From Thiolapillus brandeum (lineage in GTDB: Bacteria > Pseudomonadota > Gammaproteobacteria > Chromatiales > Chromatiaceae), in the NCBI RefSeq assembly GCF_000828615.1, contig NZ_AP012273.1:2728001-2792000 (forward strand): 64,000 nucleotides of DNA, in the 5' to 3' direction. Under the pieces are notes generated by a model. The model was not told where the DNA came from, made no database searches, and was given only the letters and a program-made list of their open reading frames with translations. The position numbers were made by a program, and so were the translations under genes. This document shows positions 7,395 to 14,965 of this stretch, piece by piece; the stretch's first letter is position 1, and each line of letters starts with the position of its first letter.

Positions 7395-8840
7395 ATGAGC
7401 GAAAATAATCCTGTCTCCAAGGACGCCCCGGCTTCTGTCGAAGCCACGCCCGGGCAGCCCCCTCAAGCCCATGCCGGCCTGGCATTCTTTTTTCTGTCAT
7501 TGTACATAGTCGTACTCTTTGTCCGGCCCCAGGAATTCATACCGGCTTTCGAAGGCTGGCCGCTCATGCCGATATTGATCATTGCCGCTTTCGTGGCTTG
7601 GCTGGGCGCAGGAAAACTGCAGTTGAATGCCCCCCCTTTCTATCTTCTGACAGCACTGTTTCTGTACTCACCATTGACCGTGCTGGTAGCGGGAGAAGGG
7701 GCATCCAATGCCCTGGAAACCGTGGTCAAGCTGATCCCTCCCTATCTGACATTCCTGCTCATCAGCACCACCGCCCTTTCCCGGAAACGCATCCGGTTCA
7801 TGATGTGGCTGATGATCGGGGGAGCAGTCCTTTTCAGTCTGCACGGTATCCAGCAAAAATACACCGGGGTCGGCTGGACGGGAGAGGTGCCCATACTCGG
7901 GCGCATACGCTACATCGGAATATTCAATGATCCCAACGATGTGGGACTGTCCCTGGTCACAGCCCTGCCCATGAGCCTGTATCTGATGCGTACCAGCAAC
8001 AACACCGTACTCAAACTGCTGTTGCTGTTTGCTGCCGGATTGATCATATGGGGCATCAGCCTGACCAATTCCCGGGGCACCATTCTTGCTCTGGGCGCCA
8101 TACTTGGAGTATTTTCCTGGCGCAAATACGGCGTATTCAAAACCCTGATGGCGGGCGTCATAGCCGTCCCTCTCATGTTCACGTTGAGCAGCCGGCTCGA
8201 TACCATCAGCCCGGGAGAGGAGTCCGCTCATGGCCGGGTGGAAGCCTGGTATGAAGGTATCCAGATGCTCAAGGAAAATCCGGTTTTTGGCGTGGGATTT
8301 GATCTCTTTACCGACCACCACTTCCGAACTGCCCATAATTCCTATGTCCTGGTGCTGGCAGAACAGGGGGTGCCCGGTTATTTTCTGTGGTTCAGTTTCG
8401 TCGGCATCTGCTTCACCCTCATGTACCGTCTGCAGAAATCCCGAAAGGAACCTGAAGCACCCTATGCCGCGTGGCAATCCCTGGGATTGGAAAGGCCCCA
8501 GGGCACTGGGGCAGCAGGTGGATTTCTGCCACCGGAATCCCTGGAAAAAAAGCCGGAGGAAGAAGAAAACATCGCCCCCGAGGATCGGGCCATAGCCCGG
8601 GTGCTATTCCTTTCCCTGGTGGGGTTTGCCGTATCCTCTTTCTTCCTCAGCAGAAGCTACTCCATGCAGTTGTTCCTGTTGTGCGGAATGGCGGTAGCCC
8701 ACTACCAGGGAACCCGCCTGCGCAATCCGGATGTCACTGAATACCGTTTTCTGGATCATTTTCTGTTCTGGGGCGTTCTCTGTTGTATTTCCATCGTGGT
8801 GCTTTATTTCATCGTTTCGGCTCTGTTGAGCCTTTCCTGA
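7395..8840 (+). CDS. O-antigen ligase/Wzy-like EPS polymerase (exosortase A-associated type)
   Basis: This 481-residue protein has about ten membrane segments. Family hallmarks are VRPQEFIPAF near residue 40, NDPNDVGLSL near 178, LTNSRGTILALG near 223 and a periplasmic AHNSYVLVLAEQG near 315, typical of the O-antigen ligase (Wzy_C) fold and of exosortase-A-associated ligases. It is expected to polymerise lipid-linked repeat units in the periplasm. An acidic cytoplasmic insert (SLEKKPEEEENIAPED, about 377-395) lies before the last two membrane segments. It is followed five bases later by a glycosyltransferase, so the two are probably translated from one mRNA. Confidence 0.85.
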   Translation: MSENNPVSKDAPASVEATPGQPPQAHAGLAFFFLSLYIVVLFVRPQEFIPAFEGWPLMPILIIAAFVAWLGAGKLQLNAPPFYLLTALFLYSPLTVLVAGEGASNALETVVKLIPPYLTFLLISTTALSRKRIRFMMWLMIGGAVLFSLHGIQQKYTGVGWTGEVPILGRIRYIGIFNDPNDVGLSLVTALPMSLYLMRTSNNTVLKLLLLFAAGLIIWGISLTNSRGTILALGAILGVFSWRKYGVFKTLMAGVIAVPLMFTLSSRLDTISPGEESAHGRVEAWYEGIQMLKENPVFGVGFDLFTDHHFRTAHNSYVLVLAEQGVPGYFLWFSFVGICFTLMYRLQKSRKEPEAPYAAWQSLGLERPQGTGAAGGFLPPESLEKKPEEEENIAPEDRAIARVLFLSLVGFAVSSFFLSRSYSMQLFLLCGMAVAHYQGTRLRNPDVTEYRFLDHFLFWGVLCCISIVVLYFIVSALLSLS

Positions 8841-8845
8841 CCATT

Positions 8846-10015
8846 ATGCGTTCACGCCTGCTTATCATTACCAATCTCTATCCCACCCCCTGGGAAAACC
8901 TCCGGGGCACCTTCAATTTCCAGCAATTCAACCATCTGGCCGCACACCTGGATATCCGGATCATCGTTCCAGTCAGTTGGAAGGACCGTTTCAAACACCG
9001 CAACAGTCCAGCCAAAAAGTTGCTGGAACACCCCCTGCAAGGCAAGGTTGTGTATCCCCTGTATTGGTACACACCAGGTTTTTTCCGGGGCACCTATGGA
9101 TGGAGCATGTGGGCTTCGCTGCAACTGCAATGCCGCAAACTGATTGCCGATTTCAACCCCGATTACCTGCTCTCATCATGGGCCTATCCCGAAGGAGTGG
9201 CTGGCACCCGCATCGCACAATCCCTGGGCATTCCTGCATTCGTGAAAGTTCATGGCAGCGATGTCAACATCACCGCGCAGCATCCCCATGTAGCCCCCCA
9301 GATCCACGACTGGGGACAGAAGGTGGCAGGCGTTGCATCGGTCAGCCACGATCTGAAAAAGAAACTGAAAAAACTTGGGGTTCCGGAATCCAGAATACAT
9401 GTCATCTACAATGGCATAGACCACCAGCGCTTTCACCCGATGGCCGATGATATGGCGCGGAAATCCCTGCATCTGGACAATGCTCCATTTCTGCTATACG
9501 TGGGCGACCTGAAAGCGCGCAAGGGATGCATGGATTTGCTGCTGGCCTTTCTCAAGCTGGAAAAAAAATATCCCCGGCTGAAACTGTATATTGCCGGAAC
9601 AGGCGTGATGCAGATTCCTCTCCAGCAGCACATCGAACAGGCAGGCGTAGCGAACAAAGTGCAGCTGCTGGGAAAAGTTCAGCATGCTGACCTGAATCAA
9701 TGGTATAACGCCGCAAGTCTCACCTGTCTGCCCAGCTATAACGAAGGCGTGCCCAATGTACTGCTGGAATCCATGGCCTGCGGCACACCTGTAGTAGCCA
9801 CTGGTATTGGTGGCATACCTGAAGTCGTCAACAGCGATTGCGGCTTGCTGACGGAACCCGGCGATATTGAGGCCCTGGCCCAAAAACTGGACAATGCTCT
9901 GGAAAAGAACTGGAATCAGGAAAGAATCCATCAACATGCATCAGGATTCTCCTGGGAAGAGAACACGCGGAAGATGCTGGACATGTTCCGTGGCAATGGA
10001 GACCCCCTCAAATGA
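8846..10015 (+). CDS. Glycosyltransferase family 4
   Basis: This 389-residue cytosolic retaining glycosyltransferase has the GT-B fold. The N-terminal domain contains FVKVHGSDVNI. The C-terminal nucleotide-sugar domain contains LLYVGDLKARKG and the EGVPNVLLESMACGTPVV segment with the paired glutamates of GT4 enzymes. I chose ATG at 8846, five bases after the polymerase stop; a frame extending to 8783 lies within the polymerase gene. It overlaps the next gene by four bases (ATGA). Donor and acceptor sugars cannot be told. Confidence 0.85.
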   Translation: MRSRLLIITNLYPTPWENLRGTFNFQQFNHLAAHLDIRIIVPVSWKDRFKHRNSPAKKLLEHPLQGKVVYPLYWYTPGFFRGTYGWSMWASLQLQCRKLIADFNPDYLLSSWAYPEGVAGTRIAQSLGIPAFVKVHGSDVNITAQHPHVAPQIHDWGQKVAGVASVSHDLKKKLKKLGVPESRIHVIYNGIDHQRFHPMADDMARKSLHLDNAPFLLYVGDLKARKGCMDLLLAFLKLEKKYPRLKLYIAGTGVMQIPLQQHIEQAGVANKVQLLGKVQHADLNQWYNAASLTCLPSYNEGVPNVLLESMACGTPVVATGIGGIPEVVNSDCGLLTEPGDIEALAQKLDNALEKNWNQERIHQHASGFSWEENTRKMLDMFRGNGDPLK

Positions 10016-11369: not shown

Positions 11370-12097
11370 AAAAAATCAAACACCTGTACACGGAACTTCG
11401 GGAAATACGGCATATTCCCAGGACAACCATCAATCTCATGGTGGAAACCGCAGCAGACAATCCTTTTTATCGCGACCTGACCATGGAGTACTACAAAGAG
11501 GCGCGTCAGCGGCACCCAAAATTTCTTTTGATACGGCAGATGGAGTGGGGCGTAGCCTTGTGCATTCTCCCGGAAAAATTTGATGACTATTTCATGCTTT
11601 TGGAAGGTGCTGCCAGAAGAAACTACAAAAAGGCCAAACGACTGGAATACCACTTTGGTGAACTGGACTACAACAACCATCTGGACGAAGTCACCGCCAT
11701 TCATCATTCCACCGAAACCCGCCAAGGAAAACTGCCGAAAGACTTTGTGAAATACGCTGCCACCCCCCACAGCAACCCTCCATCACTGGATAGTGAGCAC
11801 GCGTATCCCTATTTTGGTGTATTCAACAAGGAAGGCACACTGATTGCCTATGCGTCCTGCTTCGTCGCAGGTGAATACTGCAATATCCAAAGAATCTACG
11901 GCCACGCAGGCTACCAGTCGGACGGCTGTGTTCCCATGCTGATCATTTCCATTGCCGAATACCTGTACCAGCATTATCCCAAGGTTACCCATTACGCCTA
12001 TGGAACCTACTACGGCGCCAGTCAGTCAATGCAGCGTTTCAAGAGAAAATTCCATTTTCTGCCCCATCGTGTGGAGTGGAAACTCCAGTCAGACTGA
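11354..12097 (+). CDS. Hypothetical protein, GNAT-like fold suspected
   Basis: This 247-residue protein has no signal or membrane segment. I do not recognise the first half. The second half (about 140-245) has the alternation of an acetyltransferase core: FGVFNKEGTLIAYASCFVAG as paired strands, then IQRIYGHAGYQSDGCVPML and a helix IISIAEYLYQHYP, ending with strand THYAYGTYYGAS. No clear acetyl-CoA loop (Q/RxxGxG/A) is seen, so enzyme function is only suspected. Next gene downstream is the accessory island, which begins within about 70 bases of its stop. Confidence 0.55.
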   Translation: MRNPIEKIKHLYTELREIRHIPRTTINLMVETAADNPFYRDLTMEYYKEARQRHPKFLLIRQMEWGVALCILPEKFDDYFMLLEGAARRNYKKAKRLEYHFGELDYNNHLDEVTAIHHSTETRQGKLPKDFVKYAATPHSNPPSLDSEHAYPYFGVFNKEGTLIAYASCFVAGEYCNIQRIYGHAGYQSDGCVPMLIISIAEYLYQHYPKVTHYAYGTYYGASQSMQRFKRKFHFLPHRVEWKLQSD

Positions 12098-12165
12098 AAC
12101 CCATATCTCCATCAGAAGATATCGGCGACCGGTCAGCGACCTGGTGGGCGCACTGGGGGTGGGCC

Positions 12166-12853
12166 ATGGCTGAACCGCTCACCCTCCAGACGGTGCTGCA
12201 GCAGCACTGCCTGATCCCCGGCGGCGTGCTCACCGAAAAGCACCAATGGCAGGCCGCCCGCAGCACCTACCTGTTCCCGGTACGGGCATTATCCCGCCAC
12301 TTCCGGGGCAAAATGGTCAGCCGCCTGCGGCAATGCGCCAGCGCAGGCCAGCTCAACCATATCACCCGGACAGACGAAATCGACGACATCCTGAATCAGT
12401 TCATGAAAAAGGACTGGGTGGTGTACAGCAAGCCCTGCATCAATCACACCGAAACGGTGGTCCGCTACCTGGCCCGTTACAGCCACAAGATCGCCATCAG
12501 TGATGCGCGTATTGTCGGCATAGAGAATGATCAGGTGCGCTTCCGCTACCGGGACGATCAGTCCAGGGTCATAACCTTGCGCACCGACGAACTGATCCGC
12601 CGCTTTCTGCTGCATGTGCTCCCCAATGGCTTTATGCGCATCCGCCACTACGGCCTGTTGGCCAACCGGTGCCGGAACGCCTCGTTGGAGAAGATACGCC
12701 GGATACTGGCGCAACCGGCCAAGGCTGAAGAAGAGAAAAGCCAAACCGGAAGAAGCCGCCGGTTATCCCTGTCCCCACTGCCACCGGGGGCATCTGATCC
12801 CCATCTACGAACTGCCCCCGGCATGGCCGATACCCGCCAGGGCGCCGGGATGA
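12166..12853 (+). pseudogene. IS91-family transposase remnant (IS801/IS1294-like), 5'-truncated and frameshifted
   Basis: The frame to about 12740 encodes HCLIPGGVLTE, YLFPVRALSRHFRGK, VRYLARYSHKIAISDARI and LPNGFMRIRHYGLLANRCR, the hallmark C-terminal half of IS91-type rolling-circle transposases. The upstream zinc-finger and most of the HUH region are missing; the position of the first HUH histidine reads Q. Near 12740 the coding potential shifts frame: the next segment, with CPHCHRGHLIPIYEL, lies in another frame and ends at 12853. The element is therefore dead. It lies directly upstream of the integron cassette. Confidence 0.85.
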
Positions 12854-12856
12854 CGT

Positions 12857-13130
12857 AGATCACGACCGGCAGGCAGGACGAACCGATCAGGGATGAAAGC
12901 AACCGCAGGGGATCATACCCTGAGGGGTTCGTGTGGCGAATGAGCGGAAAATACCTTAGACTGACAGGGAAATAAGCCACAACCTGCAGGGAAAGCACCG
13001 AAAATGACCGGATCCATCGGCCAACACAGCGCTAAGGAAGCCATCAACCCGGTTCAAAGGCCGGTGGTCAAAGCCGCCGGTAGAATACAATCCCCTTTAT
13101 ATAGACAGTGCCAACCTGATGGGCGGCATA
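12857..13130. other. Non-coding stretch between IS91 remnant and attC
   Basis: This stretch holds no open frame of note. It most likely contains the rest of the IS91 element downstream of its transposase and possibly the tail of a lost cassette, since a complete attC follows at 13131. I could not place the IS91 terminus. Confidence 0.4.
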
Positions 13131-13189
13131 GTCCAACAGACATTTATCTGCCATGCTGCGCACGGCAGATAAATGCTTAGATGTTAGCG
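13131..13189 (+). other. Integron attC recombination site (complete, 59 bp)
   Basis: Left core GTCCAAC (13131-13137) fits RYYYAAC. Right core GTTAGCG (13183-13189) fits GTTRRRY at its conserved GTT. Between them, ACATTTATCTGCC and GGCAGATAAATGCT pair as an inverted repeat with one unpaired G, like the extrahelical bases that orient attC folding. The loop is short. The gene cassette begins at TTAGCG (13184). This is a visual match, not a covariance-model result. Confidence 0.85.
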
Positions 13190-13202
13190 GGATAAGGTGA
13201 CA

Positions 13203-13658
13203 ATGGGAATATTACTTACTTCAACGGTTATTGCGGCGATTGTTGCTGCTGCTGTAGCCTTTTGGACGGCTCAAAGAAAAATCAGCATTGAAAACATTAC
13301 ACAGGATCGTAGAGCGTGGCGTGAAAAAATCAGAAATAATGCTCTTTCAGTTCATGATGCACTTATTTCGCGAGATGAAAAATCACTAAATAAGCATCGA
13401 GCTGAGTTTGCAGCACTACTCAACCCAAACGATATAGATGATAGGGAGATTATTGGCAGTATCAAATTGCCAGTTGACGGCAGAGAAAATGAGTATGCTG
13501 ATGAGTTCTCAGAAAGAATAGCCCTGCTACTCAAACATGATTGGGAGAGGGTTAAATTAGAGGCTGGCCCTTTTTTCATGAGAATAAAAGGTGTTCGGCA
13601 GCTATTATCCAAGATCATTTATCAGCCCAATCGTGAAAAATACAAGAGAGCGCCGTGA
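13203..13658 (+). CDS. Cassette gene 1: membrane-anchored protein of unknown function
   Basis: This protein of about 151 residues has one N-terminal membrane segment (ILLTSTVIAAIVAAAVAFW) followed by a charged, probably helical cytoplasmic part (RRAWREKIRNNALSVHDAL onward). No catalytic motif is visible. I chose ATG at 13203, preceded by AAGGTG; a GTG at 13197 is also in frame. It lies about 14 bases after the attC right core, as cassette genes often do, and 22 bases before the second cassette gene. Short soluble proteins with a similar N-terminal anchor are common hypotheticals. Function unknown; a role in phage defence is only a possibility from its cassette setting. Confidence 0.75.
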   Translation: MGILLTSTVIAAIVAAAVAFWTAQRKISIENITQDRRAWREKIRNNALSVHDALISRDEKSLNKHRAEFAALLNPNDIDDREIIGSIKLPVDGRENEYADEFSERIALLLKHDWERVKLEAGPFFMRIKGVRQLLSKIIYQPNREKYKRAP

Positions 13659-13680
13659 AGGTTGTAAGGAGTAGTAGGTA

Positions 13681-14424
13681 ATGTGGCAGTTCATAGCGTT
13701 CCTGTTGATTCTGGGAATGATAGGTGCAGTACTCAAATGGATTGGTGTTGCGCTGTATATTATATTCTTCTATATAGTATTGCCTATCGTAGGGTTTTGG
13801 ATCTTGTATGTTGTAATCCGTAGTATTTACCATGCATTTAACCCCGAAGCAAAACAAGCTTATTTAGAGCGAAAGGCAAAAGAGGCTGAAGAAAACCGAA
13901 AGCGAAAAGAGAAAGAAGAGGCAGAAGCCAAAGCAAAACGGGAACGAGAAGAGGCGGAGAAACGAAGAAAAGAATACGAACGCCAACAGCACCGAGATGG
14001 TGATCAACAAACGACACCATATACATATCAAATTGGCAAACATGGTAATGAATCGCTTGCTATTAGATATGGAATTGCGAACCAAGAACGAAAAGTTAAA
14101 GAGTATTGGTATTATGCAAAAGGTGGCGAGCAGAAGAGGAACCCTGATAGGGATAAAATCTATTATGAGCCTGCGAGCAAAATTCGGTTGCAAAAAACAA
14201 GAAAGGTGAGCAAAGACCTATACGAGGTGCTTTTAACTGACTTTAGAGATCGAAAAGCTAGGGCAATTATTGAAACAGGAACAGAGTACGTTAAAACTTT
14301 CTACCCACTTGATGATAGCTGGTTTGAGAAATACGCTGACCTAGAAGAAACATTAAAGGGAAACAATTCGTTTACGTTGAAAGAATTAGCAACATTTCAT
14401 GTTCAAAAAGCAGTTGGTACTTAA
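13681..14424 (+). CDS. Cassette gene 2: membrane protein with charged coiled coil and unknown C-terminal domain
   Basis: This 247-residue protein has two close membrane segments (about 3-22 and 25-50, including VALYIIFFYIVLPIVGFWIL). A highly charged K/E/R/A coiled coil follows (about 60-105), then a folded domain (about 118-245) with motifs YWYYAKGGEQKRNPDRDKI, LYEVLLTDFRDRKARAI and TEYVKTFYPLDDSWF. The C-terminal domain looks conserved (aromatic and charged blocks) but I cannot name it. It follows cassette gene 1 closely and ends 12 bases before the second attC left core, so the two genes share a cassette and probably a transcript. Two-gene cassettes are uncommon; a membrane-bound two-component system is a reasonable hypothesis. 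Confidence 0.75.
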   Translation: MWQFIAFLLILGMIGAVLKWIGVALYIIFFYIVLPIVGFWILYVVIRSIYHAFNPEAKQAYLERKAKEAEENRKRKEKEEAEAKAKREREEAEKRRKEYERQQHRDGDQQTTPYTYQIGKHGNESLAIRYGIANQERKVKEYWYYAKGGEQKRNPDRDKIYYEPASKIRLQKTRKVSKDLYEVLLTDFRDRKARAIIETGTEYVKTFYPLDDSWFEKYADLEETLKGNNSFTLKELATFHVQKAVGT

Positions 14425-14436
14425 TCTGCAATGTTT

Positions 14437-14455
14437 CGCTAACACACGCCCTGAG
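14437..14455 (+). other. Second attC site, left part only (interrupted)
   Basis: The left core CGCTAAC (14437-14443) is followed by ACACGCCCTGAGG, which resembles an attC left arm. No matching right arm or GTT core follows; within a few bases the sequence becomes the 3' flank of a minus-strand IS110-type transposase. The site therefore appears cut by an insertion. The right limit given is approximate. Confidence 0.65.
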
Positions 14456-14478
14456 GTAGTCCGTCAAGAAAAAACCGA

Positions 14479-14965
14479 CTAATTTGCCAGCTCTTTAACA
14501 AGCGGAGACCCCTGTTTCTGTAGGGCCATCAGGTAGGTAGCCTCATCGTAGGGTTTGCGATCCTGCCAGCAGCACCAGAGGATGCGTATCCACTCGAAGG
14601 CCAGCGCCCGAATGGCCATCTGATGGGTTTTGCCCTTCTCGCGCTGGGCCTTGTAAAAGGCCCGCGCCCAGAAAGAAAAGCGCACGGTCTGGTTGATCCA
14701 TTCAACAAACGATTGCCGCAGGAATTTGGGGCAACTGTAGCGCCAGTGGACCCAGGACTTGTTGCCCGAACGTTCGGTGACAGGCGCAATGCCTGCATAG
14801 CAGCACAAGGCCTGAGCAGAAGCAAAGCGTGAGCGATCCTCACCAAAAGCCACCAGCAGGCGTGGTGCCAATCGTTTTCCGGCGCCCGGCAGATTCCGAA
14901 ACACCGGGGCGCGGCCCCGGGAATTTGTCCCTTCATCCTGTTCAGGGGAACCTTCTCCCCTATTT
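14479..14965 (-). pseudogene. IS110/IS1111-type transposase, C-terminal fragment
   Basis: The minus-strand frame encodes the C-terminal ~145 residues of a transposase normally ~340 long. It shows FRNLPGAGKRLAPRLL, CCYAGIAPVTERSGNKSW, FLRQSFVEWINQTVR, FWARAFYKAQREKGKTHQ and YDEATYLMAL, all typical of the Transposase_20 part of the IS110 family. The N-terminal RuvC-like DEDD catalytic half is absent; the frame meets a stop at about 14965. Its tail abuts a broken attC. Members of the IS1111 branch are known to insert specifically into attC sites, which makes a targeted insertion likely, followed by a deletion. Confidence 0.85.

Follow-up and report, generated by a model that had tools for sequence, protein, structure and literature searches.

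A stranded gene cassette in Thiolapillus brandeum and an IS91-family lineage found at cassette R' sites

A short segment of the Thiolapillus brandeum genome is best read as a real integron cassette of two genes, stranded in a chromosomal polysaccharide locus, with the remnant of an IS91-family element on its left and an IS110/IS1111-type element on its right, and the IS91 lineage concerned would, on the same reading, settle at the R' of gene cassettes (G|TT). We put the probability of this account at roughly 60%. The position of the lineage at R', the precision of its junction and the recurrence of both are matters of observation. The cassette itself is ordinary, and it is the flanking IS91 lineage that forms the interesting part. 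The window is the whole stretch of 64,000 nucleotides that was analysed (C1:2728001-2792000 within a 3.15-Mb genome), and the positions below are those of the window unless a contig or locus is named.

Results

A two-gene cassette outside the integron platform

The cassette occupies positions 13183-14443 of the forward strand, from an R' (GTTAGCG, 13183-13189) to an R'' (CGCTAAC, 14437-14443), and direct reading of the sequence confirmed that these ends are exact complements, as had been noticed in an earlier, sequence-only reading. It carries two genes on the same strand, one of 151 aa with a hydrophobic N-terminus (13203-13658, within ORF 13197-13658) and one of 247 aa whose hydrophobic N-terminus is followed by a charged stretch (13681-14424, from the ORF list). 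The AT-richness ascribed to this two-gene segment is likewise borne out, as its G+C content is 40.1% compared with 55.6% across the window, a value below those of all 1255 sliding windows of the same size. The first gene, searched as ORF 13197-13658, matched no Pfam family above cut-off and no PADLOC or NCBIfam family. For the second, Pfam and NCBIfam returned low-scoring matches that all fall under the curated cut-offs, and the best PADLOC match was PDC-M67B, with an E-value of only 0.021.

The end-to-end match had also been taken as specific to a genuine cassette. The seven-base match alone is only moderately unlikely, with CGCTAAC turning up in 4% of shuffles of the cassette stretch, but the same logic recurs at a second locus of this genome (L009, GTTAGGC...GCCTAAC) and in relatives. 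Exact complementary ends are present at L009, G009C33, G001, L049 and L050, and a complete attC comes after the far end in G001, L049 and L050. A chance match around an AT-rich insertion unrelated to integrons would agree with the frequency in shuffles and with the fact that no complete attC is left on either side of the cassette, but it is at odds with these recurrences and with the placement of IS1111-type ends after cassette R'' in the array of this genome, and we regard such a coincidence as very improbable. The matching ends, the same pattern at the second locus and in relatives, and the presence of intI and attC elsewhere in the genome together support the view that 13183-14443, judged by its sequence, represents a genuine gene cassette outside an integron platform.

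The integron integrase of this genome lies at C1:2968255-2969202 (474 bits against a cut-off of 265), ~226 kb from the cassette, and is adjoined by a cassette array whose R' forms include GTTATGC and GTTAGCC. Within the window there is no integron integrase match, in agreement with the sequence-only reading, which had placed the cassette away from a platform on these grounds. Its suggestion that related attC be sought across the genome was also productive: R3, a covariance model of attC built from nine training sites, lists 21 sites genome-wide at E-values up to 0.05, 20 of them below 0.001 and none within the window. In the array beside intI, R3 recovers ten sites, and five of these had no part in its training. 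An Rfam search of the window gave no match, and in the search for an empty site, neither the flanking genes nor the cassette matched the DNA of any of the 14 other genomes of the genus at an E-value of 1e-10. These genomes offered no counterpart of the region for the second refuting check of the sequence-only reading, which asked for it without attC-flanked context in relatives.

An IS110/IS1111-type fragment at the right end

A complete attC is absent at the far end of the cassette, where R'' directly precedes the left-end fragment of an IS110/IS1111-type element (14444-14903, reverse strand). The fragment measures 460 bp, includes part of a transposase gene (PF02371, 61 bits for ORF 14479-14904) and is 95.2% identical to a copy in the genome's array that scores 167 bits with NF033542. 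Its subterminal inverted repeats are GGTAGTCCGTC (14455-14465) and GATAGTCCGTC. Such an element directly follows R'' at this cassette and at two points of the array, and a few of 12 other ends were examined for attC. We read the far-end attC as once complete and now interrupted after R''; the cassette's right attC thus appears to be broken by insertion, as for IS1111-attC elements. The matching attC ends of the sequence-only reading are not supported in that form, since an IS91-family end is joined to R' on the left and the attC on the right is cut after R'' by the IS1111-type insertion. Elsewhere, IS1111-type left ends at G000:C1 884979, 1244322, 1955385 and 1596093 are shortened to ~45-65 bp, and two of these are on cassettes with an IS91 end at the opposite side.

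The IS91-family remnant and its right-end hairpin

Alignment to six full-length elements identifies positions 12132-13182 (forward strand) as a decayed IS91-family remnant composed of the end of a tyrosine recombinase gene, a Y2 transposase fragment (Y2_Tnp PF04986, 171 bits for ORF 12076-12858) and a right end; the left ~925 bp are missing and ~430 bp are deleted at 12204/12205. Three further copies of window positions 13080-13187 exist in the genome, having the upstream part in common and each continuing into different sequence (GTTAGGC, GTTGGCT and, in a degraded copy, TAGGCAA). That upstream part corresponds to the 3' portion of the IS91-family element, and the bases that precede 13183 form the end of a repeated element of this type. 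Full-length elements are ~2.4 kb long, start with GTTGAACTAA.CCGC and encode a tyrosine recombinase and then a Y2 transposase, for which the intact G450 copy scores 434 bits with NF033538 (transpos_IS91). The recombinase scores 139-164 bits with the integron-integrase model, for which the cut-off is 265, and the extra IntI segment is absent. The left end GTTGAAC is the exact complement of the right-end R'' GTTCAAC found in G017, G125 and Vibrio, and the GTCCAAC variant is one base off.

The interval 13131-13189, previously described as a complete attC, does present GTCCAAC (13131-13137), a stem with arms CATTTATCTGCC (13141-13152) and GGCAGATAAATG (13164-13175), and GTTAGCG (13183-13189) in attC order, but its R'' and R' derive from different units: we read 13131-13182 (forward strand) as the putative right end of the IS91-family element and assign 13183-13189 to the cassette as its R'. 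The hairpin at 13131-13182, which is the supposed attC less its last seven bases, is kept together with its R''-like GTCCAAC in 11 aligned copies, and none of 200 shuffles folds as well, whichever strand is taken (z -3.25 and -4.27). With filters off and E-values up to 10, R3 lists nothing at 13131-13189, the outcome that the sequence-only reading had named as refuting, although this nine-sequence model misses some real attC. The repeated hairpin attC beside intI in G450 escapes it, and the arr attC on a Vibrio plasmid reaches only E 3.1. It also gives weak matches to the right end in two named relatives (L183 5384-5445, E 2.7; L182 5424-5487, E 3.2), so that non-canonical attC activity at the hairpin is possible.

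Two candidate interpretations of the element were tried and rejected. The first was that element and cassette form one travelling unit, but near-identical elements in G222 and G455 carry different right flanks, and the cassette is therefore a target or a later arrival and not simply cargo. The second took near-identical, seemingly 5'-truncated copies, found in a search that had used the right end alone, as proof of rolling-circle polarity. The left ends of G222a, d and f proved to be further off and the recombinase gene of G455a to be split, which makes these cases insertions inside the element and not truncations.

Right junctions across Gammaproteobacteria

R1, a covariance model built from 11 right-end sequences that exclude R', gave matches at E-values up to 0.01, some of them weak, in 40 of 210 genomes from the family and 32 of 369 genomes sampled from the class, with two genomes common to both sets. 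We read 74 junctions, of which 63, mostly stronger matches, came from these searches and 11 had been found earlier; weaker matches, for example those in G188, G182, G163, G164, G205 and G206, were left out. Two of the 74 junctions (L049 and L051) are on contigs binned to other phyla that come from the same sample as a Sedimenticola assembly and may be misbinned. Excluding one junction without a flank and one duplicate flank leaves 72 distinct flanks, some shorter than 2.45 kb.

The right flank starts with GTT in 62 of these 72 and with other bases in ten. Base 4 is A in 49 cases, G in 8, C in 4 and T in 1, and the strict form GTTRRRY is found in only 18 of the 62 GTT flanks. An exact complement of the first seven bases is located downstream within 2.45 kb in 30 of the 62 (permuted mean 5.3, maximum 10.7, 40 permutations) and is missing in 32, and the complement occurs together with a required stem or IS1111 end in 10 of the 62, compared with 0.24 when permuted. 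Applied to 68 flank loci at E-values up to 1, R3 lists 32 sites, 31 of them in element orientation, or 27 of 28 when four training sites are removed. An R3 site is present in the right flank of 20 junctions and begins at the complementary R'' in seven. By eye, the right flanks of G455e (L126) and G222b (L133) resemble the start of a group II intron after GTTATC and GTTAGC, respectively.

Left ends

The 25 visible left ends include four from named plasmid relatives and exclude two weak matches. Six of them abut an attC body (the copy at C1:2692 kb of this genome, G455e, G125b, the second copy in G001, G450a and pTs485), and in these six cases the element sits exactly between the attC body and R'. 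Three of the six attC (C1:2692 kb, G455e and the second G001 copy) were identified with R3 and all belong to its training set; the other three (G125b, G450a and pTs485) were recognized by eye, and the sites of G450a and pTs485 recur with no element nearby. In G450b the left end lies 306 bp, and in G017c 574 bp, from where an intI match starts. Neither attC nor attI was recognized at 17 of the 25 visible left ends, and 19 left flanks tested for hairpins gave no enrichment (7.9 vs 7.4). When an empty site was sought for G450a, four of six other genomes of the genus matched in pieces and none had the left flank joined to the cassette.

Two arrays deserve mention in their own right. Beside intI in G450, positions 1633-8195 of L212 (G450:C2) hold five near-invariant hairpin attC ending in CCAGCT|GTT, which R3 misses and in which R'' ends in AAA, not AAC. 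At L030 (G000:C2, 7737-9943), attC-model matches at 7737-7796 and 9874-9943 bracket a further IS91 transposase, a distant one (ORF 7877-9106), whose reading frame enters an attC-like stem that is followed by GTTAGAA.

Plasmid relatives and an alphaproteobacterial control

Named relatives were obtained by a tblastn search of PLSDB with the G450 transposase, and four regions were opened. Plasmid pTs485 of Ca. Thiodictyon syntrophicum carries an integron integrase, one gene, an attC, the element and then further genes with attC-like repeats, to which R3 gives only ~12 bits. On pTunz3 of Thiothrix unzii, GTTGGCT and AGCCAAC enclose a DUF262 gene, and on pVb677-tet of Vibrio parahaemolyticus GTTAGAT is followed by arr and by ATCTAAC with an attC-like stem; at L184 (3100-5976), the locus from the latter plasmid, the IS91-type element is directly 5' of the arr cassette. 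In Pseudoalteromonas pPBSW1, GTTATGC comes after the element and R3 sites of 22 and 23 bits are found further along. Another 11 Vibrio plasmids have equal transposase identity according to the PLSDB listing alone.

A comparable hairpin and R''-like motif are seen in related elements at 12 alphaproteobacterial loci, which by eye give nine distinct flanks. At these loci there is no GTT at the corresponding place, R3 lists nothing at E-values up to 1 and no cassettes are visible, with 10 of the 12 reaching only ~150 bases past the matched end and the true right end being undefined. This pattern suggests that the R''-like motif could be ancestral and the cassette association proper to the gammaproteobacterial lineage. 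The alphaproteobacterial relatives (L186-L197) appear to end before GATTC...TGATTCA stretches, at L193 and L196 immediately ahead of a gene annotated as IS630-family; other insertion sequences may be the preferred targets of this lineage.

How the junctions might arise

In the mechanism that we favor, the Y2 (HUH) transposase would select the G|TT junction on single-stranded DNA. In the clearest cases the element lies precisely where the attC body of one cassette meets the R' of the following one. On the left, the first bases of the element (GTTGAAC) would there act as a new R', while a hairpin preceded by GT(T/C)CAAC is supplied by the right end; the upstream attC stays complete. In favor of this explanation are the complementary cassette ends, the GTT starts and complementary far ends of the right flanks, the R3 sites in element orientation and the left ends that abut attC or lie near intI. 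It is weakened by the 17 left ends that have neither attC nor attI, the lack of hairpin enrichment in left flanks, the ten right flanks without GTT, the 32 GTT flanks without a complementary far end, the small share of strict GTTRRRY and the four best full-length G455 copies (b, c, d and f), which have no attC match in the right flank.

Another account, which seems to us possible but doubtful, treats the IS91-type element as an integron cassette in its own right, with a working, non-canonical attC in its right-end hairpin. Under this account IntI would move the element at attI/attC and add cassettes to its right end, and the attC of the sequence-only reading would be functional. The complementary ends GTTGAAC and GTTCAAC are in keeping with such a history, as are the elements that occupy or adjoin the place of the first cassette in three integrons (G450b, G017c and pTs485), the weak R3 listing of two relatives' right ends and the detection of intI above cut-off in 7 of 10 element genomes tested; cassettes received later by a stranded element would account for the left ends that have no attC. 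However, the other three genomes lack intI above cut-off, including G455 with its 11 copies (best match 203 bits, partial), and R3 lists neither the window hairpin nor, at E-values up to 1, any element right end in the 68 loci. Moreover, the alphaproteobacterial relatives have a similar motif and hairpin and no visible cassettes, and the likeness may thus be ancestral. We favor insertion of the IS91 lineage at R', where either its own transposase, the likelier agent, or an integron integrase may make the junction.

Discussion

These findings carry a caution for cassette annotation, since what looks like an attC hairpin next to an isolated cassette may instead mark the end of a transposon. They also invite a broader conjecture, to which we give somewhat less credence than to the cassette-like account of the element and which we would call unlikely as it stands. 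The IS91 lineage could be a rolling-circle transposon disguised as a cassette, whose circle would contain a complete attC-like site and would be moved both by its own HUH transposase and by integron integrases. Each copy would then provide, away from integrons, a movable site at which cassettes could dock in chromosomes and plasmids.

Like IS91 and ISCR elements, the lineage combines a Y2 transposase (NF033538, 434 bits) with a terminal hairpin. Classical IS91 targets differ from those seen here in being GAAC/CAAG, and an upstream tyrosine recombinase is present in some IS91 members. The lineage differs from ISCR elements, with the clade Ia model giving only 27.5 bits against a cut-off of 925.

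Among mobile elements that choose attC, two kinds are well known, the IIC-attC introns and the IS1111-attC elements. If our preferred reading is true, an HUH lineage at the R' side that leaves the upstream attC complete would be a third kind of attC invader, and this would change views on how arrays are invaded and on cassettes outside integrons, including arr on Vibrio plasmids. In the literature searched, which mostly did not extend to subscription papers, we found no systematic description of an IS91 lineage at cassette junctions, and the sole link between an IS91-like element and attC was in the available text of one report (PMC9229058). There, ISShvi3 is an IS91-like element beside an attC in an integron of Shewanella sp. 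Choline-02u, which its authors describe as a new gene cassette structure. Our elements share with ISShvi3 the position of an IS91-like element adjoining an attC in a cassette array. As presented in that text, however, ISShvi3 is a single case mentioned in passing, whose sequence was outside our comparison, whereas the junction at the R' base recurs here across Gammaproteobacteria.

According to the portions of the sources available to us, IS1111-attC elements are insertion sequences that choose the attC sites of cassettes (PMC11187229, PMC12444791, PMC9229058). The IS91 lineage is also found at attC sites, and an IS1111-type element is itself present at the right end of the cassette described here. 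The two differ in that the IS1111-attC elements use an IS110/IS1111 transposase and here insert after R'', breaking the attC, whereas the IS91 lineage is located at R' and the upstream attC is complete. Group IIC-attC introns, as outlined in the accessible part of a further report (PMC7923331), target attC by insertion at TTGT/T on the bottom strand; unlike the IS91 lineage, these are retroelements that are oriented opposite to the cassettes and have no HUH transposase.
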